Assembly (NCBI GenBank): GCA_963969365.1
Contig: OZ017754.1
Coordinates: forward strand, 558,001 to 622,000
Direction: 5' to 3'
DNA from: Asterochloris sp. CNOR1
Taxonomy: Eukaryota > Chlorophyta > Trebouxiophyceae > Trebouxiales > Trebouxiaceae
DNA length: 64,000 nt
Positions 1,519-64,000 of the stretch are shown one piece after another. The notes below the pieces were generated by a model. It was not told where the DNA came from. It ran no database searches and was given only the letters and a program-made list of their open reading frames with translations. The position numbers were made by a program, and so were the translations under genes. Numbering within the stretch: position 1 is the stretch's first letter; each line of letters starts with the position of its first letter.

Positions 1519-4500
1519 TTATGCTGCAGCACCAACTGGCTGCTGGCTGTCCTGTGGGCTCCTTGCACTTGCGGCTGGCGCTTCTCTCCTGCTTAGTTTC
1601 ACGTGCAGGCCATGGGCTGTGTGGATGGTGGCCCCAGTTGCCATGCCCACAGCCTGGGGACCCTTGACAAACTCAAAATTGAATCTCCTGCACAGCAGCA
1701 GAGATGGGCTGCGATAGCCCCAGCACGATATGTTTGGCAGGAGTTAGCCCCAGCGCGGGGGCTTGCTCACCTGTCCCACCAGCAATGCATGGCCAGTTGC
1801 GCCTTTGGAGCTTGGCATCTAGAAGGGTAACGAGGCTCACCGCAACAGCATGCTGAGAGCCACCGTGGCTTCTAGCATGGCAAACTGGTCCCCCACACAC
1901 TTTCGCGCTCCTCCGCCAAAGGGAATGAACGCAAAATCGCTGGCAACCTCATTTGGGTACAGGCTGCTGCCCTGCGCCTCAGGTCTGTAACCTGCCCACC
2001 GGCCATTGTAGTCTGGGTTGCTGTTGGTTTCAGTGAAGCGCTCTGGTCTGAAACTGTCGGGGTCCTTCCAGAGGTAAGGCGATCTGCAGGAGTCACTGCT
2101 GTCAGGACTCCACAGCCAAATGGTCGCCAGCATTGCTGCCTTGCACAGCCATCCAATCACCCCACACAACATGATGCAGAGCCTGACTTCCCTCTTGGGC
2201 TGGCAGAGCACACCACACTGACGCGGCGTGCTGTGCTGCAGTGACTCTGCACGTCAGAAATTCAGCAAAGTGTGCACCGGTGCCTGCCATGCCCACCTGT
2301 GCAGGTTGTAAACTGAGATGAAGAGGTCTGCCCCCTTTCCGATGGGGTACCCGTCAGGGTCGCCCGTCAAGGGCATGGGCAGCGTGTCCTCTCCCAGTGC
2401 TCGCCGGATGAGGATGGGGGGCTGAGGGTACAGGCGCAGAGACTCAGAAAGGACGCTGCGCACATAGGGCATCTGCTGCATCTCTGCCAGGCCTGCAGAG
2501 GCGCTCACGATCAGCACTTTGAAGGCACCCCGGACTGCATACTGAGGTGGCCTGCAGGGAAACCAGGGCAGGTCACAGCCTGTATTGAGCTGTGTTCAGC
2601 AAGCGTCGCAGTGCAAGGAGAGGTTGCTGCACTGCGTGGGTTGCGGCTGCCGAGTGGGGCGTGTACTTGGGCGTCGCTGAGCTGGGGACGCAGTGCACTG
2701 CAGTAGATTGCTTGAGGGCAGGCAGCTTGGTCACCAGTGGCAGACATCATAGAACACTCTGAGCAGCAATCACAGCAGGCAGCTCAAATTTGTGCAGCCA
2801 GACCACACTTATGACGCACGACAAGCAGTGCCTCCCAGAGGCTGTCAAGCGCAGGCACACCTGGGGTTTCATAGCCAGTGACCTAGCAACTCTCCTGCCT
2901 GCACCTGGCTAATGCTGCGGCACCAGCAGGCCAAGCTCGAGAAGGCAGTGCACAGGCACACCTGGGGCCTTGTCGCCGGTCACAGCGTCAATCTCCTGCC
3001 GGCACTTGGCCACAGCCTGGGGGTTCTGCATCAGCTCGAACAGCGCCCAGGTCAGCACAGCTGCCGTCGTCTCGTGGCCGGCAATCAGCATGGTCATCAA
3101 GTCGTCCCGCAGCTGCTTGTCGTCTATGTCTGCATCCCTCATGTCCACCAGGAAACGCAGCAGGCTGGGGTCCTGGACCTGCAACGGACAGCAAGGACAG
3201 GGACCGGTCAGGCTGCTGCAGCCCATCTTGATGTGCAGGGCGGGCTGCCACCGGCGTCTGCAGCACCACAGGTCCTGCAGCAGAGAGCGAGGACGGGGGT
3301 TGTTCTGGCTGCTGCAGCCCATCTGGAGGTGAAGGGCGGGCTGCCACCGGCGTCTGCCGCACCACGCCAGGAACACAGGGCTCAGGTGCAGTGTAGAGTG
3401 TGAACATGCTGGTGGATCTGGGCAGTCCTCAGGTCCGTTGGAAAGCTCTGCAGCGACAGATTGGTGCAATGGCTGAGCATGACTCCCAGCAAAAGCGTGT
3501 GAACCTAGACTGCCAGGAGGCGCAGCAGGATGGGGGAAAGAGTGCAGCATAGGCAATGGGGCATGCTCCCTGAGATGCCTGGAAGACCTGACCCATATGA
3601 GCTGATGCATATGAGCTGCACTCCTGGAGCCCGTACAACATAGAGCATGCTGGGGCTCTGCATGATGAGAACAGCAGGCTGGGGACCTGAACAGGCACAC
3701 CAGGAGTCAGGACAAGGTGCCCAGCAAAGCCCAATGGGGGTCGCTCGAACTGAGCTCAGAGCTAGAACGGGAGCTGTGTCAGCAGTCAGGAGCCTTCCAC
3801 TGGCTCTGCCAAACCTGCCTTGGAGTAGTCCCTGCTCTGTAGGGCTTCCACATCCTCAGCGTTTCTGGTGGCCTTGGCCTGGGCTATGAGCTTGTTCATG
3901 CAGTTGTTCAGTACCTGCACAACACAGCAACTCAAGGTGGAGAGCCTGGTGGCAGAGGGAGCTAACAGGACAGCAGCACAACCACAGCAGAGACTCAGGG
4001 CAGGTGTCATCGAGCCTGAGCCACCTGTGTGGCAAAGATGTGGCCTCAGCGTGTCTCAGCACATCACATTGCCACCCCAGACAGGTGTTGCCGCACTAGA
4101 GCGCCATGTTGTCCACCCTTGGCACTGCATATGTCAGCCCTCAGTCCAAGGCACCCTGGCTGCTGCATGGGCCCCCAGAACTGCAGCACCAGAGAGCAGT
4201 GCTGCTGCAGCCTGAGTGCCAAGCAGATTGTGAGAGCAATCCTTGCAAGCGCTCCCTGCTTTGAAAACAGTTCCACCCGGCAGGGGAGGCCCCTGTCGGC
4301 ACATGCACAGGTTGCGCTGCACATCGGAGCAGTTGGCAGGAGGCACAACACTGAGATGCGCTTCTGCTCACCCCGAGGTTTTTGGTGAACCTGCGCTGCC
4401 GCGGCACCAGCTGCATGGCCAGGGGAAGGTTCCAGTAGGGGATGTAGAAGGTGGAGCGGTGCTCTGCCTCCTTCAGAACACTGTACACAGCCTGCAGGGT

Positions 4501-7203
4501 CGAAATCTCAGCCACAGCTGCGAAAGCTGCAGATTCTCCTCTGATATGGTGGCCCCCAGGCTTCCATGTGGTGCATGGCTGGGCCTTGGAAGTGCAGCAC
4601 AACCAGTCGTCAGAGGTTGAGTGGCCCTCTGGTGAATGCAATGTGCCATTGGCAGGGCTGTCTGCGCCCCTGAATGGTCTGCGCTTGACGAGCATGCCAT
4701 GCAGGGCTGCATGTCTGGCAGAAGGCTTGCACCTGGGCAGTACCAAGCGCTGGCTCACCTTGATCACAGGCGACTCCTTTGTGAGTGAGCTGAAGTCAAA
4801 GTTGAACACCCCCAAGCCAATGATGTCCAGCCCCAGATTCAGAAACTCATCCTCCATGTTCACAGAGGCTGTCTGCAGGGAGGCAGCTTGAAGTCAAATG
4901 ACAAGCACAAGTCTGAAGCATCCAAGTTGCTGGAGGGGCCCTCCCTTTCTAGAGCTGCTGCTGTCTGCAGGGCAGGCAGCACAGGCTGGTTGCCTAGTCA
5001 TCAGGCAAAACTCCTCCAGTGAGGGGCCGGCAGCGTTTCAAGACTCGCAGTGCTGCCTCAGCCTCTCCTCAAGGTTTGCAGCCTCTGAAGAGGCTTCCCA
5101 AGGCTCACTGTGCTTCCTCAACGTCTTCTGTTTGGTTACAGCCTCTGGAGAAGCTTCCTGGCAGCTGCACCTCTCTCATAAACGCACAGCACAGGTGCTA
5201 GGCTGCAACTCAGCACAACCCATGCACATTAGGAGCCCCAGCCACTACAAGGCCAGCCACAGCACCACTCACTCACTGAATCCTTGCTTGCTCACTGACT
5301 ACTTACTTGCCCGCCCCCCGGCACTTGCAGCACACAGCCCCAACAGCAAGCCACACAGCCAGCCCAGACGCAGCCCCGCCAGCACAGCCAGAGCCAGCTC
5401 AGCCCTAGGAGAGTGGTGCCAGCCAGCAACATCCCACCTGAGCTGCAACTTGAAAAGCCCCAGCCCCTGAGTCTGTCACAAGAATGTGCAGGCATGCACC
5501 CCAGCCCCAAACAATCTTGTCCAGCAAGTCAGTCCCAAACATCTGCGCCAAGACCCCACCATTGCAGCACAGCAGGTGTGCAGATGGGGGCTCATCCGCC
5601 CTGCAGCAGTCGCAGGCACTGGCCAGCACACCGTCTTGATGGGGCACCCCAGCCCGCCTCCTCCAGCAGTGCATCTGGCCACTTCATCGAGCTGTCTCTC
5701 TTGCAGGACCCACACACTGCCACACAGTGCAGCACAGCACTGTCCCAGCCACTGCGCTCCTGCACAGGCACTTGAGTCTGGGCCCCAACCCTGAGGCTGC
5801 ATAGCTCACCACACCCCAGCCGACTCACCCCCTGCCCCTCCAACAGCGCGTCAAACTTGTCCAGCGAGTTTTGGGTGCACCGCCCAAACATCTGCACCAT
5901 GGCCTCCAGGTAGGCCTTGTGGAAGGAGGGCACAACGGCCCGCCGACGGGGCTTCCAGGTCTCCAGGTCAGCCGGGATGAGCCCCTTGCCCATGATGGGC
6001 TCCAGAATCTCTGCCAGCACACCCTTGTCATAATTGAAGGCGTTGTCCTGCACAAAAGCAGACAGCAGTCATCCTGGACCAGTGAAGGTGCTGCTGACAG
6101 GCTGAGTCCAGCGCCCCGCCACATGGCAGCTGGCTCAGGCACAGCTGGGGCAGTCAGGGTTGCAAGACTTGCTGCTCATGAAGCTGAACATGGGACCTGT
6201 CTCCAGATCGAGCTTGCATCTGTCAGCTGTGCCGCCGCAGCAGCAAAGGGCTGTCACCGCACAAGCTGCCCGCCCTGCGGTGCCCTACCGCACCCCTGTC
6301 TAGACGTCGTGCAGGTCACAGGGATGACACCTTTATGCCCCTGCCCTTACCCCTGCCCATCTGCAGGGAGCTGCCTGCTGGGCGTCCACTCCAATCATTC
6401 CCAAAGCTGTGAGCAGCCGCCTGCATGCTCAGAGAGTAAAGCGGCAAGCTTGCGCACTTTCCTCACCTTCAGAATGTGACGCACGACTACTGGGTCGGAC
6501 AGCACTATAAACGCCTTGGGCCCGAAGGCAAGCTTGTACACGCCGCCTTTATCCAGAAACCTGCAGAGGTAATCAGCCATTTTGCCAAGACAAGCTTGCC
6601 GTGCCAGCCCAGGGCAGAGCAGGACCATGGTATGGCTGTTACTCAGCATGATAGGCTAATGAGATGTGGGCTGCCGCAGCTGACTGCCTGCTGCTCAGCA
6701 TTGCCATGCCTGATGCAGCCCCAAGCACTCAGCATGCTGCACCAGCGATGTCTGCCGGCTGCCTGCTGAACATCTTGCTCGGGCCAGCACATCAGTCAAG
6801 CCAGTGCCTCGCAGAGATGCAGCGCCTACCAGCTCAGCATGACCCCCTGGCTTTAGCATGGCTAACCCCAAACAGGTGGCAGAGCAGGTATCAAGCAGAG
6901 TTCCCACCACTGGTACAATGCTTTGAAAAGGGGCTGATCGCCTGCGAGATCTGAGAGGGCTCCCTCCGACACGGGGATGTTGGCGCCCCCCACGTTTGGT
7001 TGGAAGTAGCCAGCAGAGACCTCGTCCAGCAGCTTACTGAGCCCATCTGACAGGTTGCCCCTGCCCTTGTAGTAGGCGTAGGCAAGGCCAGCCAGGCCTG
7101 GGGTGAAGAATAGGCCCACCCCTAGCAAAGTATTGGCGGCTGAGCACCGTGTGCTGCAGCGGTGGCCCCTGCTACCTGCAGGGCAGGGTCTGAATGATAA
7201 CAT
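1519..7203 (-). CDS. CYP97B: Cytochrome P450, CYP97B clade (plastid)
   Basis: Ten exons on the minus strand join in phase into 587 aa: 7203-6908, 6560-6467, 6047-5829, 4872-4759, 4491-4372, 3914-3819, 3178-2962, 2492-2297, 2083-1841 and 1687-1519. The start at 7203 gives an Arg/Ser/Cys-rich N-terminus resembling a plastid transit peptide. Visible P450 landmarks are the I-helix AGHETT, the ExxR motif in ESLRLYP, the PERF motif, and the heme loop [14 protein letters not shown] with its Cys ligand. Exon junctions and segment lengths match plant CYP97B3 closely as I recall it (for example [12 protein letters not shown] and [15 protein letters not shown]), more so than CYP97A or CYP97C. CYP97 enzymes hydroxylate carotenoid rings; the CYP97B role is less settled. 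The intron after 3819 uses a GC donor. Two introns hold duplicated splice junctions. The gene is divergent from the ferredoxin gene. Confidence 0.95.
2851..2985 (-). repeat. Duplicated exon-tail/donor segment in a CYP97B intron
   Basis: The end of the exon at 2962 with its donor is repeated about 101 bases downstream in the transcript direction. The shared core AGGCACACCTGGGG (plus strand) occurs near 2853-2866 and 2954-2967, with partial similarity on either side up to about 2880 and 2985. Confidence 0.7.
3168..3370 (-). repeat. Two-copy ~99-bp repeat spanning an acceptor in CYP97B
   Basis: Two adjacent units of roughly 96-100 bases start near 3170 and 3272. The segments at about 3213-3270 and 3309-3366 are nearly identical (both contain GGGCGGGCTGCCACCGGCGT). 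The first unit overlaps the real 3' splice site and head of the exon ending at 3178; the second has a decayed GGTCCTGCAG version of that junction. Confidence 0.75.
3813..3819 (-). other. GC-AG intron donor (AAG|GCAGGT) in CYP97B
   Basis: Splicing at AAG|GCAGGT restores the reading frame and gives the same residue spacing as plant CYP97B3 between the RDY motif and DPSLLRFL. Reading through gives a stop shortly after. No GT donor nearby gives an in-frame product of the right length. Confidence 0.85.
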
Positions 7204-7737
7204 TGGCCTGCTATCCAGTCTCTCTCGCGGGAGCTTGGCGTGCTGTCATTTTGGTGGACAGCTGCCAATCAACAGGTTCATTGCTCCGCTTTGCAATGCC
7301 CCAAGCTCTGCTGATTCTGACACAGATGCCGAGGTTGCTGCTGTAGCATACTGGCAGCCAGCACCAGCAGCGTGGGGCGGTCAACATGCAGCTGCCATGA
7401 CGTCTGTTGTGCTGCAGCAACAAATCATGGTCTACTTGCACATGACAGAGGACTTGCAAAGTGGAATGCTTGCCTGCGTGGCCTCTGCCCCTCTGTGCAT
7501 TCCGCAAGCTTTGCCAACCCAGATTACTACTCTTTGCGGCTTGGCGCCTGTGTAACAAGCCTGCTTGACCAGGAGGGGATGCTACCTGCTGGTGCTGCAT
7601 TCTGGCTGACCAGGGGCAGTTGACGTGTGACATGCCTCCCGAGATCAGATCACATAGGTTATAATCAGAAAAAGGAGTAAGAGGTGGTCCCCTTCCGGTT
7701 GGATTGGACGGAGGCAGCCCTTTCCGGTTGGACAAGG
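7204..7737. promoter_or_regulatory. Divergent intergenic region between CYP97B and ferredoxin
   Basis: This 534-base interval separates two head-to-head plastid-protein genes and must hold both promoters and 5' leaders. A short direct repeat with core CCTTTCCGGTTGGA-like sequence occurs near 7690-7735 (two copies of TTCCGGTTGGA). I see no convincing TATA box or convincing additional exon. Confidence 0.6.
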
Positions 7738-8640
7738 ATGAAGGGGTGCCTGCACAACCCCGGGAACCTGCACAGAGTGTGCAGCACCAGTGCTGCGGCA
7801 CCACCCCCAAGAAGGGGCAGGGGCCACTGCACCAGGGTGTATGCAGCAGATGCCATGTGCAAGGACATGGTGAACACCCGCACGCAGCGCACAGCCAGTG
7901 AGGGGACGGCCACCATCACCTTCCTGGGGGCAGAGGGCCAGGAGATGTCTGTAAATTGTCCCAAGGTCAGCTTTCTGCTTCCAGATGGGCTGCATTGCAT
8001 TGCCAGGCCGCCACAGACCTACGGGATGTCCAAGACCGCACCGCTCACAGCAAAAGCTGCCTGCAGGACCAGTACATACTTGATGCAGGCCTTGACAGCG
8101 GCCTGGAGCTGCCCTACACCTGCAGGGGCGGCATCTGTGGGTGAGCTCACAGCACTATGCGCTGTGCTGCGGCGTCTGGTGCCGTTTCGCAGGTTCTTGA
8201 TGAGGAGTGATGGCTGGCTGCAGAGCTTGTGTGGGGCGAGTGGTGGAGGGCAAAGTAGATCCCAGTGATGTGAGTGTTGAGCTGCATCCTGCATCTGGCT
8301 GCAGCACATGCCAACTGGACCTGCCTGCTGCAGATTGCTGACCTGGAATTCACATTATCTGAGGACGAAATTGCGCAGGTAAGCCCTGTACTGGCCCCCC
8401 AGGTGTGCCAGACAGGAGCACTCCGCAAAGCACTGCTGAGAGATGTTTCCTTTAGAGCCACTTCCTATCTGATCCTGTTTGCAGGGCATGGCCCTCATCT
8501 GTATGTCCAGACCAGCCAGCGACACTGTCAGGATTGAGACTCAGTCAGATTGGGGCTACAGCCTTGGTGTCGCTGAATGGAAAGGTGCCACAGGCCATAT
8601 TGCTGGCAAGGAAGTCCGCCCTCTCTCAGAGGACTTGTGA
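7738..8640 (+). CDS. Plastid-type [2Fe-2S] ferredoxin with C-terminal extension
   Basis: Five exons (7738-7965, 8067-8140, 8224-8269, 8334-8378, 8485-8640) join in phase into 182 aa. The first about 55 residues are basic, Pro/Ala-rich and lack acids, as expected for a plastid transit peptide. The plant-type cluster signature is complete across introns: CRGGICGAC gives C-x4-C-x2-C, and the fourth Cys lies in ALICMSRP. After the ferredoxin fold there is an extension of about 35 residues beyond classical PetF, reminiscent of the FdC-type or minor algal ferredoxins. It should pass single electrons in the stroma; the partner is unknown. It is divergent from CYP97B, a plastid P450 that could need a ferredoxin-linked supply of electrons. 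The first in-frame ATG is at 7738; the upstream reading frame is closed by TAA at 7678. Confidence 0.9.
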
Positions 8641-9026
8641 GTTGAGCTCTACCTTCCTTCTGCCGTTTTTGAGGTGGGACACATGCATATTGTGAGCCAC
8701 ACACAGCAGGAACACATGCAGCTAATTTACACAGGGATAGGATCAGATGACTGAATATTTAGAGCAATCAGATGACTGCATGCGGCGCAGACAGGGCCTG
8801 AAGTTGTTCAAAAAGGCACAACAATATTGCTCAGCAGCTGAGACCAAAGTTGTTGACAAGGTGGGACATGGGTGTACAGGGCGGGACAGGCAAACCCCAT
8901 GAGGCCTGTGGTCAAGAGACATTCCAAAATGGCAATGATAGAGCTCTACAAATTAGCTGGCGGTGTAGATGGCCAGGAGTGGGTGGGAGCAATGGCCTGC
9001 CCAGCTTTGCCGGGTGGACTAGCCAT
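8641..9026. other. Convergent 3' flanks of ferredoxin and HNH genes
   Basis: No coding exon is supported here. A minus-strand TGTAA (plus-strand TTACA at 8727-8731) could be the poly(A) signal of the HNH gene. The rest is locally AT-richer sequence typical of 3' UTRs. Confidence 0.45.
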
Positions 9027-10797
9027 TTAGATGATCACAGGTTCTGGTATAGTTGGCTCATCTGTCTTGTAGACAGCTGGCAGCCAGTTTTGCCACTCTG
9101 GTGGTGTGGACTTGACCTCGCAGTTGTCCAAGCCCACCAGCACCCCTACTTGCCAAGGTGTGGGCTCCTGCAGGAATCAGGCGCAGCGCTCAGCGGATGC
9201 CACTTCGGCAGAAGCAGGGGGGAGCAGGCCAATGCAGGTACCCTGTTGAGCATGCAACAGAGCCTTGCACTGCGGCACCCAATGTGCTGGGCTGTGAGGG
9301 GCAGCCTGAACATTGTCCTCCTGGTATGCTGCAACGCTGCTAGTGCACACCCTGGCTCACCTTCGGGATCTGCTTCAGCTTCCACCCCATCTGCTTCAGG
9401 CTGCTGTTGCCCTTCTGGCTGTTGCACGTCTCGCAGGCAGTGACGAGGTTGTCCCTGCAGCAATGGAAGGGCTTGTGACTCTCTGGCAGGCAGATGAGCG
9501 GCCATGCCGGGGGTTGCGCTTAGAGCAGTCACTCACCAGGCCCATGCGCCGCCCTTAGAGGCAGGAACAACATGGTCTATCGTCAGGTCGTGTTTGCGGT
9601 TGCAGTACCTGCAGTACGGGGCAAGCTGTCAGGCATGCCGGCAGCAGAGCACAACTGTCGCTGGTGCTGTGCATGTCAAAATGCAGTGGTGGGACATGGA
9701 TGGCCGTCAGGGATTGCAGCAAGGATGGGTAGCAGTCTGCTTCCTGGGTGAGCAAAAGGCAAACTTGCACTGGATTGAGCAGCTCTGGTTCAGCTCACTG
9801 GCACGCCAGGCCGTCTCGCAGCATGATGTTGCGGCGACTGAGCGCGATTCTGCCGTGGTGGTCCCGCTGCACATACATCCGTACGCGCAGCACGGCTGGC
9901 AGCATGAACTGGGCGTGGGCAGAGTGGGCAAAGACGTCGTAGTACTCCAGCACATCCACCTGCAACAAGTGGGGCTGTGAGGTGCAAATTGAAGTGAATT
10001 CTGGATGTTGCATCCACGCCACGACTGTGTGCTCCCGTGAGCATCAAGCAGCATGTCAGGTCCATGCTGGACGTGGGCAGCAATGTGGGCACAAGCAGCG
10101 CAGAAGGGGAAGGGCCAAAGGTGAATAGAGTACTGTGCCACGGATGATGCTGCAGCTGACACAGCTGGGGCCAGGCTCATACCAAAGGCCCTGCTGCTGC
10201 CGCCAAGATGAATAGGCTCTGCTAGCCCTCAAGGCCTGCAAGTTCCAGATGCTGGCATTGCCACACCGCAGAACCACTGCCCTGCAAATTAATGCCGTTG
10301 AAGAGCTGGCCGGCGCTCACCTTGTCGAAGATGTCTAGGCAGATGGCTCGCTGCCAGTTGATGATGTCGATGGGTCTGTAGCTGGTATCCAGGACCAGGG
10401 CTCTGTACTTATTAAAGGTGGGAAGTGACGGGGCAGGGCTGATGTTGTTCTGAAGGGTTGCTGGCTCACCCTGTGAGGACAAAGGCCTCTCAGCAGATGG
10501 GGGACGAGAAGTCTGCCTCTAGCACGCTGCACTCTGGAGATGCCATCCACATGGCCAGCCTCTGTCCAGCTCTTGCTCAAGCAGAAGAGCGCAGAGGCAA
10601 ACCAGCACAGCACAACGGGCAGCCCCAACAGCTGTGCGCAGGGACACAGAGCAAGTGTTGACCAGAGCCAGCAGCAAAAGGGTGCCCACCTGTGCTGTGC
10701 CCTTCCTGTGGTGTCCTGGCCTCCCTGCGGGCCTCTTGTTCGTCTTGGTCACATAGCGCTTCTGCTGCTGCTGTTGAGTGGCCGCTACATGCACCAT
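9027..10797 (-). CDS. HNH-endonuclease-domain protein, cyanobacterial/plastid type
   Basis: Six exons (10797-10690, 10470-10321, 9959-9799, 9608-9537, 9454-9361, 9167-9027) join in phase to 241 aa. The conserved part starts with RALVLDTSYRPIDIINWQ and continues through DVLEYYDVF, a basic strand region with LSRRNIMLRDGLACQYC, the HNH core LTIDHVVP, and DNLVTACETCNSQKG. This is the pattern of the HNH family shared by cyanobacteria and plant plastids, with the catalytic His pair and the C-x2-C zinc-type knuckles present. The molecular role in plants and algae is not well defined. The Gln-rich basic N-terminus beginning at 10797 may be only part of the transit peptide. Further 5' exons could exist up to an ATG at about 11153 that precedes a possible GC donor. 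Confidence 0.88.
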
Positions 10798-16352: not shown

Positions 16353-16400
16353 CGGGTACAAGCTAACGTCGGGAAGCCTTGGCATCCCTCCGACATGGAC
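16196..16400 (+). repeat. Duplicated acceptor/exon head before the receiver exon
   Basis: CTGCAG followed by a CAGGTACA...GGAAGCCT pattern at about 16196-16260 resembles the real acceptor and exon head at 16347-16400, about 151 bases downstream. The copies are diverged. Confidence 0.55.
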
Positions 16401-19400
16401 ACCAGGCAGCAGCGAGAAGCTGAAAGTTCTTGTGGTGGATGACGACATCCTCTGCCTCAAGCTGGTGGCAGAGATGCTGCGGCGATGTATGATATACGAA
16501 GGTGAGGCTGCAGAGGCTGTCTGAGGTGGCGTGCTGGAAACTGCAGGCTACTGCCCGCCTGGGCTGACAGTCTGTGCTTCAGGCTGTGGCAGAGATGCAA
16601 CCGTGAGTTGCTCTGAAGGTGAGGAAGGGCAGCCAGCTATTGCGAAGGGGCCTGCTGGAGGCTGTGGGCTACTGCCTGCCTGATACTGCCAGTCTGTTCC
16701 CAAGGGTTGCCCCAGAGATGCTGCTACAGTGTTGCTGTGAAGGTGGGGGAGAGGGGGCAGCTGGCAGGCTGTCTTGGGTGGCTTGCTGAAATTTGTAGGC
16801 TACCTGCTTGGCCTGCCCGCAGGGTAGTGCTAATCTGTGCCTCAGGCTGGTGGGGGATATGTTGCAACGGAGGTGGGGCAGCACAACAGCAGGTTGCTGA
16901 TACCTGCAGAGCCTAGGTTGCACTGCCAGCTGGAGCTGGCACTTTGTATTTCTAAGCAGGTGGTGGCACGGTGCCTACGCAGGCCACATGGGCTGCCTGG
17001 CCCTCTTCGCAGGGGTGCGAGCTGTGATGGTAAGGGATATATAGTCTGTGTGCTGGTCTGGGAGGTGCTGCCCCGCGGTCCTGCAGGGTTCTTTCCTCGT
17101 AGGTCTGCTTTGCGGCCGGCTTGTCCACATGGTGTTTTGCCTCTCATAGCTGCAACAAGCTGGTTTTGACTCTCGTGGAGCTGCTTATCCTGATCTTTGC
17201 ATGTAAGCAACGGCTGTGACTAGTCACCGGTGACCGTTCTCCGCCGGTACAGAATGAGCGAGCGATCTTGGTGAAGCGTACTGCAGGAGCCAGGAGGCTC
17301 ATGCAACAGCACCCCTAGGCATGCTGCCCTGTACTGTCGCTCCCACCCGTGCCATGACTGCAGATCACCCTGTGCTGCAAAGCTGACCTGCTTGCTGATG
17401 GCCTGCTGCCCTGTGCAACAGTGTGCCACACTTCTGTGGACCGCATGCCAGTTTGCCCTGCAGTGACAACCTGCCCGAATGCCATGACCGCGCTGGATCG
17501 GCTGCGGGACCGCCGGCAACATTTTGACCTCGTTCTGTCTGACGTCTACATGCCAGGCAAGCCTGGCCCTGTGTAGCCCGCCCTGGAGCTGTGCTTGGGT
17601 GCTGGGCTGCAGCTTGCCATGTGCGCCCCCCTACGTGTCTTGCTAACTTCCTGCAGTGAAGATTTCATGCTCATTGTTCTCGTTGACAAGACCAGGCCTG
17701 CAGAAATGTGGTATGCCTTGCTCGGCCTTTGGGTCTCAACTTCTGCCTTCGCTGCAGACATGGACGGCTTCAAGCTTTTAGAGCACATTGGCCTGGAGCT
17801 GGACCTGCCAGTTATCAGTGAGTACACCACTGCTTAGACATTTTGATGCCTTGACCAGAGCTCAAACTCGCGCTGCCTGAGAGCATCTGCTTGTCTTGAC
17901 TTGATGACCCAGTCATCCTGCTGCACAGTCCACCACAGGTGTCAGCAGCATGGGTCACAGCACTGACTGCTACCTCACATCAGAGCCACTGACTGCTACC
18001 TCACATCAGAGCCAACACTGCAGTCTCTGCATAGCGTGTTGCCAGTCTGGGCAACAGCAGAGACAGCGATGCCTCAAGGGGTCTCCCCAAGAGTGGCTGC
18101 ACATGTTCATGTTGCAAGGCCTGTCCCAGGGAACAGCACTGCAGCACTGCAAAGTTTGATGCCTGGCTGTGCCCTGCAGTGATGTCCTCCAATGGCGAGA
18201 CAAATGTTGTGCTCCAAGGGGTCACTCACGGCGCTGTTGACTTCCTGATCAAGCCAGTGCGCATCGAGGAGCTGCGCAATGTGTGGCAGCATGTTGTTCG
18301 CAGGAAACGTGGGCAGGTGCACTCCTTGTTGTGTGCGTGACTCATATGCTCAGCATGCACAAGCGTATGCTCTGTGAATGTGCGGGAGGTGCCAAACTTG
18401 ACGGGCAAGCTGGGGATCTGGGTATCTTTGAGTGCTTGGCTGCCCTGCCCAGTGCTGTGCAGCACAGCGGCGCTCACTGCAAGTGGGTCAAGGCAGCATG
18501 ACAGAGCTTGTTGAAGATGCCTTGTGATGTGCAGTGTACTGCCAGCTTGCAGCAACATACCTAGCATGGCACTGCCAGAGACCTGTACATTTAGTCCCAT
18601 GCCCAGCACTCAATAATCAGACCTGCTGCAGTCCAAAGCACAGAGAAGCTGTGCTCATGAGTACCTCCTGCCTGCCTTTGCAGAGAGCGAGTGGCGAAAG
18701 CAGGGAGGGTGAGGGGCGGGAGGGCTCTGTGGATGAGGAGGAGGCAGAGGCAGGAGACGAGCACTCTCGTGTAGTGCGTGGCAGCGCAGAGAAGAAACGC
18801 AAAGAGGTGCGGCACGCTGTGCGCCGCAAACCCATGCCAGCAGCAGCCCATGGACGCTTGATATGTCCTGAGCTAGCGGCACAATGAGGGCTTGCAGTGA
18901 GGTGCTGCTGGTGCACACTTCCTGCTCCCATCAGTGCTTTGCACAACCTGTTTGCTAGCAACTTGCACCTCCTGCATGGTCTGGCACGCACAACTCATTG
19001 CTGTTTTTGAGGCATGCGCTGTGGCATGCTGTGCACTCGTACTGGCCTGGACTGAGTGCCACTTGCAGCGCTACAAAGGTGCAAGTTGCCAGCGCTGGTC
19101 ATCTCATCTCACAGCAGCTCTACAAATGTGGCACTGAGGCTTGTGTACTGTGCAGATGTCCTCCAGTGTGCCAGACTTTCTCGGGAGTAACGAGCTGGAT
19201 CGAGACTCAGCCGCAAGAAAGGTGTGCTGGGTCTGAAGTGCTCTAGGTGGTCATCGCCAGGGCCGGTCTGTCCAATGTGTGGCAGGATGCAGGCTCAGGA
19301 TTTGCTAGTGCTGCAATGTCAGGCCAGGCAGGCCTGCTGTGTATTTAGACCTGCAGGTTAGGGGCTGCCCTGTGACAGGTGTTGCACACTGCTGCTGCCT

Positions 19401-45700: not shown

Positions 45701-48700
45701 GCAGGCTGGCGGCGCTAGCGAGCCTAGAGGCTGTGCAGGAGAGCCTTCATGGCAGCATGGTCCCTCCCACTGTGGCACCTTCCATGAACGTGTCTGCTCA
45801 TGGCGTTCAGGTAATCACCCTGCCCAGCACTGCTGTCTGCCCCACAGATCACAGACTCCTCTGGCCAGGCGTGCAGAGCACTGCTGGCAACTGCACTGCT
45901 CGCCTGCCCTGCTGGTGGTGTCACCGTCACTCGCAACTCTGAGGATGACACGCCCTTGTCCCGGAGGTGCGACCGGCCACTGTGGTGTGGTCTGGCGCTG
46001 CCTGCATCATCCGGCGTGCACACCCTGCTGCCAGCCCCCAACACAGCCACCCTCCGCCTCCTGCATGCCAGGGAGCGCCTGCGCCTGCATCAAACAGCAT
46101 ACTGCTGGCTGCTGATTCCAGATGCACCCCCAACCTCTGCCTCGTGCAGGCCATGGCCAGCCTTGCATCACCCTGTGTCCGGCCTGCTGCTGACTGTCAC
46201 CCCTCCCACCTTCTGCCACCTGCAGGACATGGACCGCCTGCATCATCTGGGCCCACCTCGCTGCCAGCCTGACAGACCCACACAAAGTGCCTGCACAACC
46301 CAGCATCCCCCCTACTGTGGCCCAAATCACACCTACCCTCTGCCTCCTGCAGGACATGGAGGCAGACAGCGAGGAGAGGGCGCCTGCAGGCCTTGTGCCC
46401 GCTGCTGCCATGGGCGGCGTGGGGGATGCAGCTGTGAACCCATCGCTTGCAGCAGCTGCCGCCTCAGGCGCTGCTGGGCAGGCTGCAGGCGAGGCCGGCG
46501 GGGGCGAGGAGGCCGTTGTGCGGCACAAGCCCCATGGGCGTGGGGTCGAGATCGTGCAGCACTGGCTGGCTGGCATTGATGATGCCGACACCAGCGGCCT
46601 GCTGTCAGGTGGGAGCGCAGTGCGCTTGCAGTGGTGGCTGCGGCTGCTGTGAGGAGTGCCACTCTCGCCAGCTGTAGGCATATGCTTGCACTGGCTGCCA
46701 GCGAGGACACAACACACCAACACCAGGGCCTGCGAGCAGGTGGGAGGGCGGATGTTCATGCTGCAGATGAAAAATTTCTGACGTTACAGACAACCCATCC
46801 AGCCTATCTGCTGTTGGCCAACAGGTGCACATGCAGACACCCTGCAGCAGGAGCGATCGTATGGTCTGGTTGCAAGGCCACCTCCCGTTGTACCCGCTCC
46901 TACCGTCTGACTGACCAGCCGCATCTACCTGCCCAGAGCCTGACGGTACGCTGGACAGAGAGGCTCACCAACATCCAGAGCCAGCACCAGCGCTGGTGCC
47001 TGACAACCTGTTGTGTCTGCCTGTGCAGATCCTGACATGGGTATGGACGCAGAGGCTCAGCGCCACGCAGAGTCCGTCCACCCCAGCACCCTCCACAAGG
47101 CGCCATCCATTGGCAGCGATGATGACAACGACTGGACCTGCTCCATATGCCTGGTGCGGCCATGCAGCTGCAGGCGGCACTTTTCAACTGTGCAAAAGAC
47201 ACAAAGCAGCGCAGACAATCCCGACTGGACCTGCTTCACCTGCCTGGGGTCCCATGCAACTGCCTGCGGCACTGTCTTGTGTGGCCATGCAGGGGCAGGT
47301 TGGTGCCTGCTGGCATGCTCCTGCTTGTCTGCCTGCTCCAGCCTGAGCTGTTTGCCTCTCTTGAGACAGCTTGAACAGTGCAGCATCGTTCAAGCAGTGC
47401 AGGGTCTGCATGGCATTCGCCAGCTGTCTATCTCGATTCAGCAGGGTTGCTTGCTCGGTTTTTGCTGAGCATCAACCCAGTGCGGGCTGCTGGTGGCTGC
47501 TGCAGGTCACTCCGTGGACCCACTGATCCATGACCTGGTCCTGCACCTGCTCATCTATGTGGTGCCATTGCAGGGCATCCCGGCTGCAGACCTCCTGCAG
47601 ACTGCCGCTGCTCCTGCAGTGCTGCTTGGCCCCTGCTGCTGGTGCCTGCTTACGAAGTCCCCAAACACCATTGCTGCTGCTGCAGGGCATTCCTGCCAGA
47701 TGCAGACCTCCTGCAGACTGCTGCCGCCCCTGCTGTGCTGCTTGGCCCCTGCTGCTGGTGCCTACCCATGGCTTGATGTTGCTCCTGCAGGGCATTTTGT
47801 ACAAGCCCATTGGCCTCTCCTGCGGGCACAAGTTCTGCCGCCCCTGCGCCCTGCGGGCCGCCGGCATGAGCAAGGTGCTGGGCAAGGTCAAGGCCATCCT
47901 GGACAACATCCCTGCTGAGACCAAGTGCCCCGAGTGCCGCCAGATGTGGGTGTACTCAGGTGCCATCCAGCTCAAATCGGTGGATGAGTTTGTGCGCTCC
48001 AGGTGAGGCAGCCCTGTGCCTGGTGATGCAGACCTGGCTGCATCAATGATGTTGGCTGAAAGCTGTGCAGTGGCATGTGCTGCCAGCATGGCCTGTCTGT
48101 GCCAGATCTGTCACCTCACTGCTTGAGCTTATCAGCCGATCACGCCCTCAGCATCGTCTCTGGCCTGCAACATGCTCCCTCCATCAACCGATGGTTGGAT
48201 GTCTTGGGTGAAAGGGGTGGCGACCACTTGATATGATGACATGCTGTCTGATTGCGGCTGAAAAGCATGCATCTGGGTCTCAGGACATTTCTCAAGCCTA
48301 CAGCATCAAGCTTGCTCCTACAGGACTGCTGAAGAGAAGCAGCACTCTTTGGGCAATGCTTGTGCTGGCTGATTAAGTCACACCCAGTGGGCTCCCCCTG
48401 ACACCTTTGTTGAGGCCTGCAGGGGAAAATTTCGAGGGGACAGCAGCTCGTCAAAGCCTGTACTGCCTGGTGAACTTGGCACCCATGTGCTGCAACTGCA
48501 GCTATGCAGGGGCCACTGCAGCTAGACCTACATGCTGACTGCTGACCCCAACCCCTACTGTGGCGGCCTCGCAGGCTTGCTGGGCCTACTGTAAATATAA
48601 CAAAGGTGGCTGAGGTGATGCAGCGCATGGAATGGTTCTTGCTTGCAACTGGGCTCAGTGTTCTGTGTACGATGCCCCTGTAGGTCTGCGGAGGCCTACA

Positions 48701-49162
48701 TGGGGAAGGAGGCTGGCAAGAAGCAGCACTTGGAAGCCTGTGAGATCTGTCAGTAGGCTCAGCACCTGCGGTTTGCTCCTGCAGGTTTGCTGAGGCCTAC
48801 CAGGAGAAGGAAGCTGAGGAGAAGAAGCGCATCCAGGACCTCAAGGCAGAGATCAAGCGTCATGACCAGGAGGTCCAGGATTTCTCGTATGGCCTCTATG
48901 TAAGTCGCCACGGGCGTGCTGGCCGTCCTGCCGAGGCTTAATCTCTTACACCCTCACACCTTGCGAGCAGCATGTGCTGACTCTTGGAATACAGAGGAGC
49001 CGAGACCTGCAACTCTCTCGCCATTGCCTGGCGTCTTTCATGCTCAAGAGCAATGTTCGTGCTGCTTTTGCTTGGCCCAGACACCTGGTGCCGCACCTAC
49101 ATCTGCACGCTGGTGACTAGCATCCCCCAATCGACAGTGTGTCTCGCTGCCTGCAGTTCTGA
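42750..49162 (+). CDS. NLA-like: SPX-RING E3 ubiquitin ligase (NLA/BAH1-like)
   Basis: The start at 42750 gives the canonical SPX opening MKFGDYLKSIE, with KYKQLKKNIKQC. Exons 42750-42949, 43565-43694, 44449-44577, 45192-45379, 45705-45810 and 45848-45966 join in phase. SPX landmarks continue with REYAKVNAIGLRKILKKHDK (the Lys cluster that binds inositol pyrophosphate) and GTFLHSPLLDEL. Later exons include an acidic/Ala-rich linker near 46354-46608, then about 47031-47150 ending DWTCSICL, 47791-48002 and 48785-48899. The last three form a C3HC4 RING (CSICL, LSCGHKFCRPC, CPEC) and a charged coiled tail. A last exon TTC-TGA at 49157 is likely. In plants NLA ubiquitylates phosphate and nitrate transporters. 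The linker joins between 45966 and 47031 are not all resolved. The intron after 44577 has a GC donor. Confidence 0.92.
42935..43092 (+). repeat. Copy of the first SPX exon donor
   Basis: The exon end and donor GTCAACAGGTGGGCAG at 42942-42957 recurs identically at about 43076-43091 in the same intron, 134 bases downstream. Confidence 0.65.
43660..43860 (+). repeat. Three-copy exon tail/donor repeat in the SPX-RING gene
   Basis: The exon tail CAGCCATGAGCAAGCACCTT plus CCTGACCCCAAGCAG|GTGCGC ends at 43694. Copies end at 43778 (CTGACTGACCCTAAGCAG|GTGAGG) and 43851 (CTGTCTGACCCCAAGCAG|GTGAGG). Spacing is 84 and 73 bases, and each copy has an intact donor. Confidence 0.9.
44578..44583 (+). other. 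GC-AG intron donor (AAG|GCAAGC) in the SPX-RING gene
   Basis: The exon ends CAATTCCTCAAG and is followed by GCAAGC. Joining to the acceptor at 45191 gives FLKECWTFSEPGHGTFLHSP, the expected SPX sequence. Confidence 0.88.
44936..45206 (+). repeat. Duplicated acceptor/exon head GAGTGCTGGA
   Basis: CTACAGGAGTGCTGGATGCG at about 44950-44969 mirrors the true junction TGTAGGAGTGCTGGACATTC at 45187-45206. The upstream copy is followed by unrelated sequence. Confidence 0.6.
46220..46365 (+). repeat. Duplicated acceptor/exon head GACATGGA
   Basis: CTGCAGGACATGGACCGC near 46220 resembles the real exon head CTGCAGGACATGGAGGCA near 46348, about 128 bases later, with similar upstream CCTCTGCC/CTTCTGCC tracts. 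Confidence 0.6.
47113..47275 (+). repeat. Duplicated RING exon tail and following intron
   Basis: CGACTGGACCTGCTCCATAT plus GCCTG|GTGCGG at 47120-47159 is repeated as CGACTGGACCTGCTTCACCT plus GCCTGGGGTCC at about 47220-47255. The following CCATGCA..CTGC.GGCAC is also shared. The offset is about 101 bases. Confidence 0.85.
47560..47800 (+). repeat. Tandem acceptor/exon-head units before the RING exon
   Basis: CAGGGCAT occurs at 47571, 47683 and 47788 (the true junction), spacing 112 and 105. The first two are followed by near-identical blocks that share GCAGACCTCCTGCAGACTGC and CTTGGCCCCTGCTGCTGGTG. Confidence 0.9.
48676..48835 (+). repeat. Decayed duplicate of the penultimate SPX-RING exon
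   Basis: TGTAGGTCTGCGGAGGCCTA and following at 48680-48730 parallels the real TGCAGGTTTGCTGAGGCCTA at 48781-48835. In the same phase the copy reads SAEAYMGKEAGKKQHLEACE before a TAG, against FAEAYQEKEAEEKKRIQDLK in the true exon. Offset is about 102 bases. Confidence 0.92.
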
Positions 49163-52500: not shown

Positions 52501-55500
52501 TGCATATGTACACCAGGTAGGACCTGTTGGCCCAGTTAGGATTGAGGGGCTCGTACACCATGTGGTTGTGCACGATGCCTATCTGAGCATCCTCGCCGCC
52601 TGCAGGCGCACGAAGGTATGACCAGGCCGCTTGTGTAACCATGAGAGTGTGGAAACCGCCCATCTGAGCGATCCACTGCTTGCAGGCATAGAGAGCTCAA
52701 GCTTTTCAAATGGCTGACAGCAAGGACGCTGCGCACTGCCCATCTGAGCAGGCTCGGCACCTGCAGCCAGGCACAGGCAGCGGGCTGTGACACAGCGCAT
52801 TTGGTGAGGCAGGTGTGAAGAGTTAGCACAAAACCAGATGAGGGCATCTGCACCTTATCATTGCCACATCCTGATTCCACTGGCCATGCGGGGCATGTTG
52901 CGCGACAATCTTGACATCATCTGGGCCCAAGTACCAGAAAGCATGGCAAGGCTCTGGGCTGCGCAGCACACAGCATGCAGCTGCCCAGCAGCTCACGGCA
53001 CTTGACAGTAAGGTGGGGAAGCATGCATTGATGTGTGCTGATCATCCCAGAGAAGCAGGAGCCTGCATGAGGAGGCAGATGTCAGGGGTCCAGGGCAGTG
53101 CCTGGCCTCAACGTCTAGAGCTGTAGGCTCCTGGCCACCACAGTTACGCCTGATGGCCAACAGAATGCATCATGCGCTCTGAAAGCTTGAGCATGAGTCC
53201 CCCTGCAGTTGTGAAGTGCTGACCCCTGGAGGCGCAATCAGGGTTCATCACGCATGCGCGCGATGGCCTCACGGACTGCAGCATGAGCCAAGCCAGAAGT
53301 TTGCACAGAAGCTACCTCACAGCTGGCAATGGCTGCCCCTGGCAGGGACTCACCTGGCATGCGTTTTATGGCGCGATAAACGGCGTCGTGCGCTCTGAAC
53401 AGGTGGCACATGTGCTTCCCCGCAGCCGTGAAGTTCCAGGTCTTGGCCGGCGGGAAGCTGCCATGCACAAAGCCGCAGAAGCCCATCACATTGGGCTCGT
53501 TGAAGGTCACCCAGAGCTTGCACTTGCTGCTGAACTCCCTGCAGGAGACACATCAGATGTGTACCAAGTGGTCCAGCGGGATCTGTAAGCTTAACAGACT
53601 GCTGCGCAGCCTTTGCAGCAGGTGCAGAACAAGTGGGGAGGGTTCACCAAGGGGTCGGCCTTGCTGCTGCTGGATTCCCTGCAGTATGTTGAGGGCAAAG
53701 TCTGACATTGCAACATGGGTTACTAAAGCAGGTCAGGCTATGAGGACTGTCAAGGGCCGTCAGCACAGGACAGCCGGCCTGCCAGATGCCGCAGCTCATG
53801 GATTCAAATGTTCCTGACTGCATAATCTCTGCAGCTGCATAGGGTGAGGGGTGCCACTGTGCTTCATTCAACGAAAGATCAGCCTCAGCACAGGCGGACA
53901 TGCAGCGCCGGGCAGCACAGCTAGAAGTAGCTGCCAGCAAACAATGCCACCTTAGGAAATGACACTTGACCACTGCAGTTACAAGCATCAACATCATGGA
54001 GCAGCAAGCAGTCAAGCTGTGCTGGCAGCATGTTGCAGCATCTGAGCAACTGACATGCCTAGCAGGCCCCCCCACCTGAAGGCCACCTGGCAAAAGGACA
54101 CAAAGTGCTTGACGTTGTCCATGGTGGTGAAGGCGCCCAGGTCCTCAAACCACTGGGGGTGCACAAAGTGGTGCAGCGTGATCATGGGAGTCATGCCATG
54201 CCTGCAGGGAAGCTGCGTGGCTGTCAAGGCAGGCTGCAGGACTGATATCTGAGAGGTATTGACATAGCTCAGCATGAGACCTCCGATGCTGTCCCTGGGC
54301 TTGGGGTGAGAGCTGCAGTTGATGTTCGGTCCAAGGGCAGCACAGGTGTCATAGTGGGGGTCAGGAAGAGGCCTTGGTTTTCTAAACTTTTAGCTATGAT
54401 GGGGCCACAGCACTTGTGGGACTGCAGACAGTGGCTCGCACCCGCTGCGGCCCTGCCAGCCACTTGAGCGACATGGTGTGTCCCAGAGCCACAGTCAGGG
54501 CTGGGGTCATCGCTGCTCGCTCACCCCTGCAGGTAGTCCAGAGCCGCTTGGGAACCGCGCCGCGCTGTCATCCCTGCACCAGCCCAATGCACCCCACCTG
54601 TGCAGGCAGCCCAGCCTGGCAGCGCCCTCACTACAGCCCCTGGCTGCACCACTGGCAGCCATCTACCACGCAGTCAGGCAGCCCAGTTTGGCATGGAATA
54701 AGACTGCTTTCACCAAGCCCTAAAGCCGTTCGAGATGCTGCAGGTGACCGCCCACCTATGCAAGCAGTCCAGGATCGCGTGGTAGCGCACCACGCACTCC
54801 GCATCGATCTGCCCCTTTACCGGCTCGATGTGGCCCCACTCCACCGAGAGCCTGAAGGCGTTGCAGCCCAGGTCTGCAGCCCGCTGAATGTCCTCCTCGA
54901 ACAGGTTCCAGAAGTCTGAGCCGTTGCCCACCTTCACACCACCCTGAACAAGACAAACGTGACAGGTCAGAAGAGTCCATGCGGCACAGAGCCCTTGTCG
55001 CTCTGAAGCCGCCCTGCACGAAGATAGACACTGCACTCCTCCACGCCACCATGCATGGCAGAATTGTGCTGGTGTTAATCATCACATGCTCGTGGCGACC
55101 ATGCCATGGCAATGCTGTCACGAATCCAGAAGCCTGAGCCTGCATTCACACCACCTTGGCAGGGAAGAAGCACATGACCGAGCCGCTCTCGCAAGCGTGC
55201 GGAGGCATGCTAGCTGAGAGTACTGCCCTCCCTGACCACACGTCTTCACGAAACGCTTGTTCAAAGCTCAATCAACCTCAGACAAACTGGGCATGCCTCC
55301 TAAGCCAAGCTCCTGGTTGCAGTGCTGCCGCGCTGTCTGAAGAGCAGTTGCATGTCCAGAAACGCAAGGCCTGTTGGGCATGCCTGGCCTGCTGCGTGGT
55401 TCACTACCTGCCTTGCTGGCCGATGCACACACCTTGCACGAGGCCATCCCGGCATGTACACCTCTGTGCTCTCGCTGCTTTCCATGTATGATCAGGGTGC

Positions 55501-56109: not shown

Positions 56110-59187
<3,078 letters not shown>

Positions 59188-59390
59188 GCCCATTCCCTCC
59201 CTTCGCGCAGCAGGCCCCAGTCAATGGTCACCCACGCATGAAGAGTGTCCTCCTCCAAATTACAGTGCCCTGTGATGCTGCTCCCAGCACCTCAACCCAT
59301 GCAACTTGTGGCATAGGCAGCACAACCTTTTTCATGAACGAAACCAGAGTCCTTGATCGTTACTCAGGTCCAAGTTGAGTTCAACAGCTC

Positions 59391-62300: not shown

Positions 62301-64000
62301 GGACGTCAGCTGAGAGTGTCACTGCAACCTTGCCTGAGCAGGTATGGAAGCTGCAGGACGTCAAGCTGTGCGTCTAGGCATTTGGGTGCTGTCGCTGTTG
62401 AGGTTGCATGACAATCATGTCAATTGCAATCAGCAAATTGCACAGCTGCACTCTGCTGCTAAAAGTGCTGCTGTTGGTTGCAGGGCATCAAGCTGTATTG
62501 CTCAGGTACTGGAGAGCTCAACATGTGTCAGCTGCCATTTAGCTTGAGGAGTGCATTGGTGCCTTTGCAGGGCGTTGCCCTGAGTCGGCTGCCACCCACA
62601 GCCAACGCCCTTAGTGCTGCTGTTGCAGAGCCTCAAGCTGTGTTGCAGGGTGTGAGAGTACAATTAATCTTGTCTCAGCTTGGGCCATTGCCCAACCGAG
62701 CTTCTGCTGCAGGTGAACAAGCTGTGTCAGCTGCCGCCAAGCTTATACTGCATCCTGCTGCTTCAGGGCATCAAACTGTACTATCGAGTGCTGGAGAGCA
62801 TGTTGAAGGTGGAGGAGCAGCGCACAGGCATCTCCAACTTCACCAGCCTGCTGGGCAGGAATTCTTTCCACAAGTGCCTGCTGGCCTGCGCATTTGAGAC
62901 GGTGGCTTCCTGTTACAAGATAGTGAGCGCCTCTTTGCTGACCTTCCGCATCTGGCAGTTGAACATGATGCTGCCTGCTGCACCACGTCTTCAGTCACAG
63001 GTTTGCATCGGTAGTCTCATCGACTTGTCACGTGTAAGGCCAGTTGCGCCACCTTGATGAAGTGCACCTGTCCTGGACCTGGTGGGTCTGCTCCACATTC
63101 CTGTCACTCCCACTGGGATTCCTACGGTGCCCTCACCTGCCGTGCAGCCGACAGTGGTATTCCCAGCCATCCTGGACTTGCTGGAGCTGCACGCCTTTGA
63201 CCTGTGCAAGATCATCGACCCCTTTGTACGTTACGAGCCCACCATGCCGCGCGACATCCGGCGGCACCTTTTCTCCATCGAGGAGAAGATCTTGGAGTCC
63301 ATGGCCTGGGCTCAGGGTTCCACTCTGTATCCTCTGCTCATCATGGCCTGCGGGGGCAGCACGCCTGCCACCAGCAGGGTGGACGGCGTGCAGGGGAGGG
63401 ACAGCGCAGGTGAGCAGCATGTCATTGCGCAGCAGCATGTCCTGAGCAATGGGGAGCATGCTCTAGCACATGCTGGTCATGGCATGTGGGGACAACACAC
63501 CAGCAACCAGCAAGGTAGGTGCGGGCAAGGGAGGGGCGGCGCCAGTGAGCAGCAGGACCTTCCTTTATCTACAATTCCTAGGCATAAGGGCTCGCTCTAG
63601 CCCGTGCTCATCATGGCCTGCAGTGGTAGCACGCCAGCCATCAGCAAGGTTGAGGGCATGCAGCGGAAAGACAGTGGCAGTGAGCACCATGTCATCTTGC
63701 ATCTACATGTGCTGTGCACAGCAGTGCATGTCCTTCGGGGCAGCCTGGCGGGATTGAGGCCTGCAGGGGAGGGTGTTTGCAGGACTGCGCAGTCTGTTTG
63801 ACTGCATGTCCCTGTGCATCTGCATAGCTAGCAAATACTGTTGTCTGACAGGCTGGTCTGAAGAGTACCTGGGCCCAACACGCTTTGATTTTGCCGCTAT
63901 TATTGGATCCTCATGGCTTCTCCTTGAAAGACTCAGCTTCCTCCGGCAAGGCATAGCATTTGCGGCTTTCCTTTGGCAGCCTAGCTTCTCTGGCTTGCTG
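59391..64000 (+). CDS. RBR: Retinoblastoma-related protein (RBR/MAT3), 3' end beyond window
   Basis: Exons 59391-59659, 59788-59947, 60259-60896, 61425-61647, 62013-62180, 62767-62922 and 63148-63409 join in phase, and a further exon probably starts at 63852. The N-terminal cyclin-like part has [19 protein letters not shown] and [16 protein letters not shown]. The pocket A box includes [71 protein letters not shown] and [16 protein letters not shown] Thr-Pro/Ser-Pro-rich linker ([20 protein letters not shown]) before the pocket holds likely cyclin-dependent kinase sites. The pocket B box lies beyond the window. RBR holds E2F/DP in check and in green algae sets the size threshold for division. 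The intron after 59947 has a GC donor. Two introns carry splice-junction copies. Confidence 0.95.
59948..59953 (+). other. GC-AG intron donor (AAG|GCAAGC) in RBR
   Basis: The exon ends AAAAAGTGCAAG, followed by GCAAGC. Joining to the acceptor at 60258 gives [15 protein letters not shown] in frame, in the position of the conserved RBR helix. No GT donor gives an open frame. Confidence 0.82.
62345..62800 (+). repeat. Array of acceptor/exon-head copies before an RBR pocket exon
   Basis: The true junction TTCAGGGCATCAAACTGTAC at 62762 has upstream echoes near 62349 (GCAGGACGTCAAGCTGTG), 62480 (GCAGGGCATCAAGCTGTA), 62625 (GCAGAGCCTCAAGCTGTG) and 62711 (GCAGGTGAACAAGCTGTG). All lie in the intron that starts at 62181. 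Confidence 0.85.
63333..63705 (+). repeat. Three-copy exon tail/donor repeat in RBR
   Basis: The exon tail starting CTCATCATGGCCTG at 63337 and ending at the donor at 63410 recurs from about 63473 and 63607, spacing about 136 and 134. Copies keep AGCACGCC/AACACACC, the CAGCAAGGT part and the post-donor GTGAGCA.CATGTCAT segment. Confidence 0.9.

Follow-up and report, generated by a model that had tools for sequence, protein, structure and literature searches.

Worn copies of their own exon boundaries in introns of the green alga Asterochloris sp. CNOR1

Introns of Asterochloris sp. CNOR1 carry decayed direct copies of the exon edges that adjoin them. The window analyzed here is a stretch of 64,000 nucleotides (nt), positions 558001 to 622000 of contig OZ017754.1 (C9), from a genome of 56.4 Mb in 21 contigs with a G+C content of ~58%. 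Together with 20 single 10-kb loci and one 50-kb stretch, it formed a sample of 314 kb, in which about one intron in seven retains a worn copy of the exon boundary next to it. The copies are specific to that edge, lie in direct orientation and on a particular side of the exon, contain stop codons at the random rate, and occur in longer introns. We consider it probable (roughly 0.7) that they arose as short tandem duplications straddling splice junctions, which were tolerated as splicing uses one copy and which then decayed.

Own-edge copies and intron length

Comparison of the window with itself yielded 39 direct pairs (at least 28 bits) at lags of 30 to 500, with none at lags of 1000 to 1470 or 5000 to 5470. 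Across the 314 kb, 131 direct pairs scored at least 34 at lags of 30 to 500, versus 0 and 2 at the control lags of 1000 to 1470 and 1500 to 1970, and only 4 inverted pairs reached that score. The direct pairs group into 90 clusters, 23 of which lie in the window. Exact 12-mer matches were far more common at lags below ~160 than above 500, both in the window and in 20 other loci, and a near match of at least 32 bits was present in at least one place in 16 of the 20 single loci. The pairs did not correspond to minisatellite arrays; Tandem Repeats Finder gave 8 arrays in the window, with units of no more than 30 nt and no more than 3.6 copies. By position, 55 pairs had one copy across a junction and the other within an intron, 25 were exon/intron, 27 intron/intron, and 11 exon/exon, with 12 of other exon types and 1 at a gene edge. 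That the 55 junction-crossing pairs have intron copied along with exon argues against an mRNA template. The alignment covered at least 80% of the lag in 16 of the 131 pairs, with units of 62 to 184; the remaining pairs were shorter.

Gene models were predicted ab initio by a purpose-written gene finder trained on the same 314 kb, and these models decide which copy is counted as exon. At convergence, the finder gave 56 models, in which the 701 introns had a median length of 229 nt and the exons one of 122 nt. The consensus from the models was CAG/GTGAGC for donors and TGCAG/G for acceptors (slash at the junction), and 1 of the 56 predicted proteins contained an internal stop. Both the splice signals and the set of genes are consistent with a green alga. 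About 6% of the predicted donors in the 701 introns were GC and not GT, a high share if real, which the gene finder may over-call.

An initial annotation of the window, made from its letters alone, had claimed that intronic copies match the adjacent exon and would have been refuted by equal similarity to the edges of unrelated exons. Each edge (positions -15 to +45) was therefore scored against the adjoining intron and ranked against the edges of other genes, with exons of at least 45 nt and introns of at least 100 nt. Of 521 acceptor edges, 47 matched their own intron at a rank of ≤0.005, and of 521 donor edges, 48 did so, with 2.6 expected for each. A second form of the test used the exonic 60 nt alone and again gave an excess over other genes' edges, with 32 of 523 exon heads and 31 of 523 exon tails at a rank of ~0.01 (5.2 expected for each). 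Scoring a different edge of the same gene against the intron gave no excess (4/515 and 2/518 at a rank of ≤0.01; ~5 expected). When counted per intron with 400 controls per edge, an own-edge copy was found in 87 of 580 introns of at least 100 nt, 4 of them with copies on both sides, across 36 of the 56 models; ~5 edges would be expected by chance. Within the window, 22 of 185 edges passed (0.9 expected), and since other loci of the same genome show own-edge copies, the window is not special.

The arrangement of the copies also followed the initial annotation. Copies of the acceptor and exon head lay upstream in 34 cases and downstream in 4, and copies of the exon tail and donor lay downstream in 31 and upstream in 3, a split partly forced by the requirement that the copy be intronic. 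As had been proposed, the introns do not belong to one mobile introner family; a candidate family of this kind was rejected on finding 1 inter-gene match among the 701 introns at an E value of ≤1e-6. Spacing had been described as clustered near 100 to 120 bases. The median lag was 114, but the distribution is broad (10th to 90th percentile, 69 to 212) and not tight.

Introns with a copy were longer. Among introns of at least 200 nt, with an equal 165 nt searched beside the edge, those with a copy (n = 66) had a median length of 443 nt and those without (n = 339) 299 nt, a difference of 144 nt (P = 1.7e-7). Missed exons and fused genes may inflate long "introns," yet would not alone resemble the adjoining edge. 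It appears that introns throughout the sampled genome were lengthened by local duplication of DNA, and the own-edge excess, the direct orientation, and the greater length of introns with a copy bear out the original suggestion of local direct duplication.

Origin and fate of the copies

Direct (tandem) duplications of roughly 60 to 180 bp would, in the explanation that we prefer, have struck genes throughout the genome. Where the duplicated segment straddled a splice junction, splicing would keep the acceptor that lies downstream or the donor that lies upstream; because one copy is kept and the mRNA is unaltered, such a duplication could be fixed. The unused copy, together with its piece of exon, would turn intronic and decay as noncoding DNA, and the outcome would be an intron one unit longer that carries a fading splice site. 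We infer that the DNA itself was duplicated in tandem, through break repair with staggered-end fill-in or through slippage, and that splicing was undisturbed by the event. A broader claim, that junction-straddling microduplication was a major, junction-biased, and perhaps episodic source of intron DNA, so that introns grew mainly by re-copying their own junctions, seems doubtful to us. If it were true, abandoned splice sites would be legible in the introns as a fossil series and could seed alternative splicing.

The copies are concentrated at junctions. The ratio of exon-edge to intron-only pairs was 2.26, versus 1.04 by random placement of the observed lags (1.17 with whole exons); with small predicted exons dropped, it was 1.8 to 2.1, versus 0.65 to 1.01 by placement. 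On either side of the junction, copies were most frequent in the first 40 nt, covering 4.5% of edge positions at 0 to 20 nt into the exon and 0.4 to 0.9% at 60 to 80 nt. Duplication or survival might favor junctions beyond what random tandem duplication would give, producing junction-centered copies of ~45 nt at a distance of ~100 nt. This alternative, which we think unlikely, is suggested by the peak and by observed ratios (1.8 to 2.3) above those from placement alone (0.65 to 1.17). It would also fit the rarity of exon parts longer than 60 nt (4/51) and the background level of ungapped identity outside the alignments. However, an exon-anchored pair stays detectable longer because it decays mainly on one side, and in forward simulation of uniformly placed tandem duplications under five settings, one setting with decay reproduced the enrichment. 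With ages of 0.1 to 0.35 substitutions per site, the simulated ratio was 1.99, versus 2.04 observed, and the share crossing a junction was 0.73, versus 0.75 in the data. Intron indels and the requirement for an intact branch point could have shortened the alignments, and the 16 full-length units also speak against copying confined to the junction. Survival constraints and the slower decay of exon-anchored pairs can give much of the junction enrichment, so that targeting need not be assumed, though decay does not account for the shortness of the exon parts.

Several observations weigh against short tandem duplications that straddle junctions and then decay. The simulated setting that matched the ratio put 39% of exon parts above 60 nt (observed, 4/51) and had an alignment/lag value of 0.72 (observed, 0.40). 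No setting fit all of the data. Exon parts above 60 nt made up 31 to 41% in simulation when no intron minimum was set, and requiring at least 45 nt of intron at acceptors lowered this share only to 20 to 32%. Alignment/lag was 0.53 to 0.94 in four of the five settings; the fifth, with older ages, gave 0.44 but an exon-edge to intron-only ratio of 8.7. Constant-rate settings misfit as well. Young pairs were nearly absent, with a single pair of at least 92% identity and at least 30 nt at a lag of ≤500 in the 314 kb (SPX-RING gene, 43658 to 43861); a perfect 26-nt duplication at 17961 to 18014 of the window qualifies this near-absence. Outside the alignments, gapped flank similarity was slightly raised (9.6% of flanks above the 95% point of the control), in addition to the background-level ungapped identity noted above. 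Similarity of the intron-side flank was equally high beyond the presumed unit (z = 0.94), so the unit ends are putative. Homology restricted to the intron-side flank, the outcome of a first flank test, was dropped after a control placed beyond the unit yielded an equal value. The gene models are ab initio, and some are fused. In a recent P450 paralog pair, the single intron indel of at least 50 nt (70 nt) was not a tandem copy, so duplication is not the sole route of intron length change. The synonymous share described below does not discriminate between decay and constraint. The scarcity of young pairs and the shortness of the copies may mean either that the process has slowed, that young copies were lost or collapsed in assembly, or that copying was shorter and more junction centered than we propose.

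Neighboring P450 paralogs at ~1.97 Mb of contig C9 (loci L034 and L008) have in common a near-identical block several hundred bases long that takes in both exons and introns, beside stretches of ~80% identity, a pattern that resembles recent gene conversion.

The copies could instead be alternative exons or splice sites under selection, such as tandem or mutually exclusive exons or decoy sites. The dinucleotide is kept in many of them (AG in 25 of 32 copied acceptors, GT in 16 of 27 copied donors), and 19/32 acceptors and 13/27 donors have scores exceeding the 10th percentile for sites in use, so these could serve as cryptic sites. Copied acceptors had a median of 8.8 bits, versus 11.9 for those in use, with 10 of 32 outscoring the used acceptor, and identity was slightly elevated at the acceptor motif. 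Synonymous changes made up 123 of 457 (26.9%) in intronic copies, no less than the 75 of 268 (28.0%) in exon-exon pairs, where 23.8% is expected at random. On the other hand, stops made up 17 of the 457 changed codons in exon pieces inside introns (3.7%), which is the random rate (3.2%), and the length of 57 of the 69 gaps was not a multiple of three. Tandem or mutually exclusive exons were rejected on these two counts, as coding constraint is not kept. Overall identity was ~0.81, and dinucleotide retention scattered around its square, 0.66. Copied donors were weak, with a median of 3.6 bits versus 10.3 in use; 1 of 27 outscored the used donor and 2 tied. Selection on the copies as exons or splice sites is therefore quite improbable. 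Two comparisons did not discriminate, the synonymous share given above and mismatch by codon position, which was flat in both kinds of pair (19.0, 17.5, and 22.9% in exon-intron pairs; 52/298, 56/299, and 61/296 in exon-exon pairs). The exon-exon pairs held 1 stop, but the gene models disallow stops. Donors with a decayed downstream copy were themselves stronger (median, 10.3 bits [n = 27]) than donors overall (8.2 bits), as if competition from the copy selected for strong sites; detection may also be biased toward good motifs.

Creation of introns by a duplicated AG/GT segment, which the initial annotation had raised as a further possibility, was barely supported. Such a gain should leave similarity between donor and acceptor at a lag equal to the intron length. 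This signature was slightly in excess, at a score of at least 20 in 8 of 664 introns (3.2 expected), at 22 or more in 3 (0.6 expected), and at 24 or more in 2 (0.0 expected). By eye, the most convincing candidate was a 106-nt intron in one of the sampled loci (L015; score 21, fourth by score), and a few individual introns may have arisen in this manner. The excess at a score of 20 amounts to only ~5 introns in 664, and mean donor-acceptor identity in register equaled the control (0.256 versus 0.255 over 664 introns), which makes it very improbable that many of these introns were created in this way. Chance similarity through the shared splice motif (TGCAG/G, CAG/GTGAG), GC-rich composition, or gene-model artifacts is scarcely credible: the models are ab initio and the motif gives every edge several matches, yet other edges of the same gene and of other genes bear the same motif and do not match, the exonic 60 nt match alone, and the far-lag controls gave 0 and 2 pairs versus 131.

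Copies in the genes of the window

Pfam matches for the gene models comprised cytochrome P450, GH1, SPX, spermine synthase, RB_A, response regulator, synaptobrevin, HNH, and ferredoxin. The JmjC domain was weakly matched (E = 0.033, under the curated cutoff), the RING match was also under the curated cutoff, and the search reported no helical-repeat family. The names CYP97B, ACL5, RBR, and helical repeat are labels carried over from the initial annotation. Two window models are fused, one running from the response regulator through an intervening region to the SNARE gene and the other joining ACL5 and RBR, so some predicted "introns" are intergenic.

The 22 edges that passed the own-edge test were distributed as follows: 2 in the CYP97B-like gene, 1 in HNH, 3 in the fused response-regulator/helical-repeat/SNARE model, 4 in the JmjC-like gene, 7 in SPX-RING, 2 in GH1, 1 in ACL5, and 2 in RBR. 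At least eight genes had originally been claimed to carry copies, eight of them by name. Passing edges were found for CYP97B, helical-repeat, JmjC, SPX-RING, GH1, ACL5, and RBR; none of the 22 belongs to the response regulator, though that gene has pairs at 16444 to 16803. Caveats apply to ACL5, with one weak edge (score 23) besides intron-intron pairs, and to GH1, whose sole pair of at least 34 uses a doubtful predicted exon of 24 nt. The description of introns as built from such copies holds for a few (45811 to 46352 and 63410 to 63766) and is overstated for most.

In the P450 gene (CYP97B-like, minus strand), the exon tail and donor at 2950 to 3010 have a decayed downstream copy at 2849 to 2909 (lag 101, 74% identity, score 42, rank 1/401). 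A full-length tandem duplication at 3175 to 3365 (unit and lag 96; 84% identical over 95 nt) takes in a donor, an intron, and an acceptor, all predicted; the short exon placed by the model at 3252 to 3274 is doubtful. The response regulator pairs (plus strand) consist of an exon-intron unit in tandem and a further acceptor copy, at lags of 122 and 252 with 69 and 82% identity. The helical-repeat gene (28144 to 28561, plus strand) has an exon tail and donor at 28196 followed by two decayed copies at lags of 215 and 356 (75 and 86% identity; rank 1/401). Both kinds of edge are copied in the JmjC-like gene (minus strand): an acceptor and exon head with an upstream intronic copy at 33391 to 33493 (lag 72, 90% over 31 nt) and an exon tail and donor with a downstream copy at 37945 to 38102 (lag 114, 84% over 44 nt), each ranked 1/401.

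The SPX-RING gene (plus strand) has several sets of copies. One exon tail occurs three times at 43658 to 43861 (starting at 43658, 43742, and 43825; 92.5, 83, and 84% identity), and the copies at 43658 and 43742 are the least diverged long pair in the sample. The predicted exon here spans two of the exon-tail copies, which may be a tandem insertion in the protein or an abandoned copy taken into the model. At 46034 to 46361, the acceptor at 46353 is preceded by three decayed copies of the acceptor and exon head with spacings of 83, 76, and 127 (repeat family D2). Copies of an exon tail and donor follow at 46585 to 46749 (lag 132, 82%, rank 1/401) and, with a copy lacking GT, at 47129 to 47273 (lag 93, 81% over 53 nt). 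A further acceptor and exon head (48785) has an upstream copy at 48673 to 48828 (lag 101, 78% over 55 nt, rank 1/401).

Acceptor edges of GH1 at 53525 to 53544 and 54907 to 54946 (within 53525 to 55158, minus strand) have copies at lags of 140 and 212 that each rank 1/401, with no exon-edge/intron pair of at least 34. ACL5 (plus strand) shows only intron-intron direct copies at 56552 to 57031 (lags 136, 149, and 316; 72 to 82% identity), with its weak donor-edge copy set apart at 58669 to 58736 (score 23, rank 2/401). In RBR (plus strand), copies resembling an acceptor and exon head lie at 62477, 62622, and 62760 (within 62464 to 62799; families D9 and D18; lags 149 and 284). An exon tail and donor (63409) with two decayed copies form a three-unit array at 63335 to 63718 (unit ~135, 69 to 78% identity, rank 1/401).

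Inverted structures were also seen. An imperfect palindrome of ~106 nt (74%) lies within the GH1 gene at 52952 to 53057, and another sampled locus (L024) has near-palindromes of ~154 and ~161 nt at ~8247 to 8400 and 8935 to 9095 (~80% identity), possibly hairpin elements.

Relation to known duplication and intron systems

To our knowledge, intron lengthening without transposons is poorly documented. Vaughn and Bennetzen (2014) reportedly studied patch-mediated repair in rice, and the studies of Rogers (1989), Gao and Lynch (2009), Hellsten (2011), and Schiml (2016) are said to be related. Among the literature matches listed, with subscription papers outside the scope, none described decayed copies of an intron's own junctions as a feature of a whole genome. 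No contaminating algal DNA turned up when contigs of prokaryote genomes were scanned. This compact genome retains the evidence, with every copy linked to the edge of a particular conserved exon, which could serve as a dating reference. Intron growth by duplication becomes measurable per intron, and the copies predict sites of latent alternative splicing.

Introners (PMC9860276) resemble the present copies in their genome-wide effect on introns and differ in that no intron family is common to genes here. With intron sliding (PMC2891723), the likeness is that splice-site copies near an intron could permit boundary shifts; no shift was shown here, and the copies hold tens of nucleotides of exon. 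According to PMC8355091, small tandem duplications arise by fill-in at staggered breaks and end joining and, among human genomic insertions shorter than 100 bp, are the most common kind. Like the copies described here, those duplications are direct, have short units, and form no sequence family; unlike them, the present copies are old and eroded, with lags mostly of 70 to 210, and their mechanism is inferred.

A close parallel is intron gain by tandem duplication of an exon segment that contains AGGT. Tandem genomic duplication is one of seven proposed mechanisms of intron gain and the only one shown in vivo, according to PMC3443670; some novel intron positions in Drosophila are explained by tandem duplication or sliding (PMC2891723), and a case of gain by tandem genomic duplication is reported in potato (PMC4974935). 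As in the accounts of PMC3443670 and PMC2891723, duplication here is direct and local, includes splice-site sequence, and turns the exon of one copy intronic. It differs in that the gain signature is nearly absent and the segments mostly straddle an existing junction and lengthen an existing intron. The process itself has been described before; what is new is so clear a record of intron lengthening, specific to each intron's own edge.

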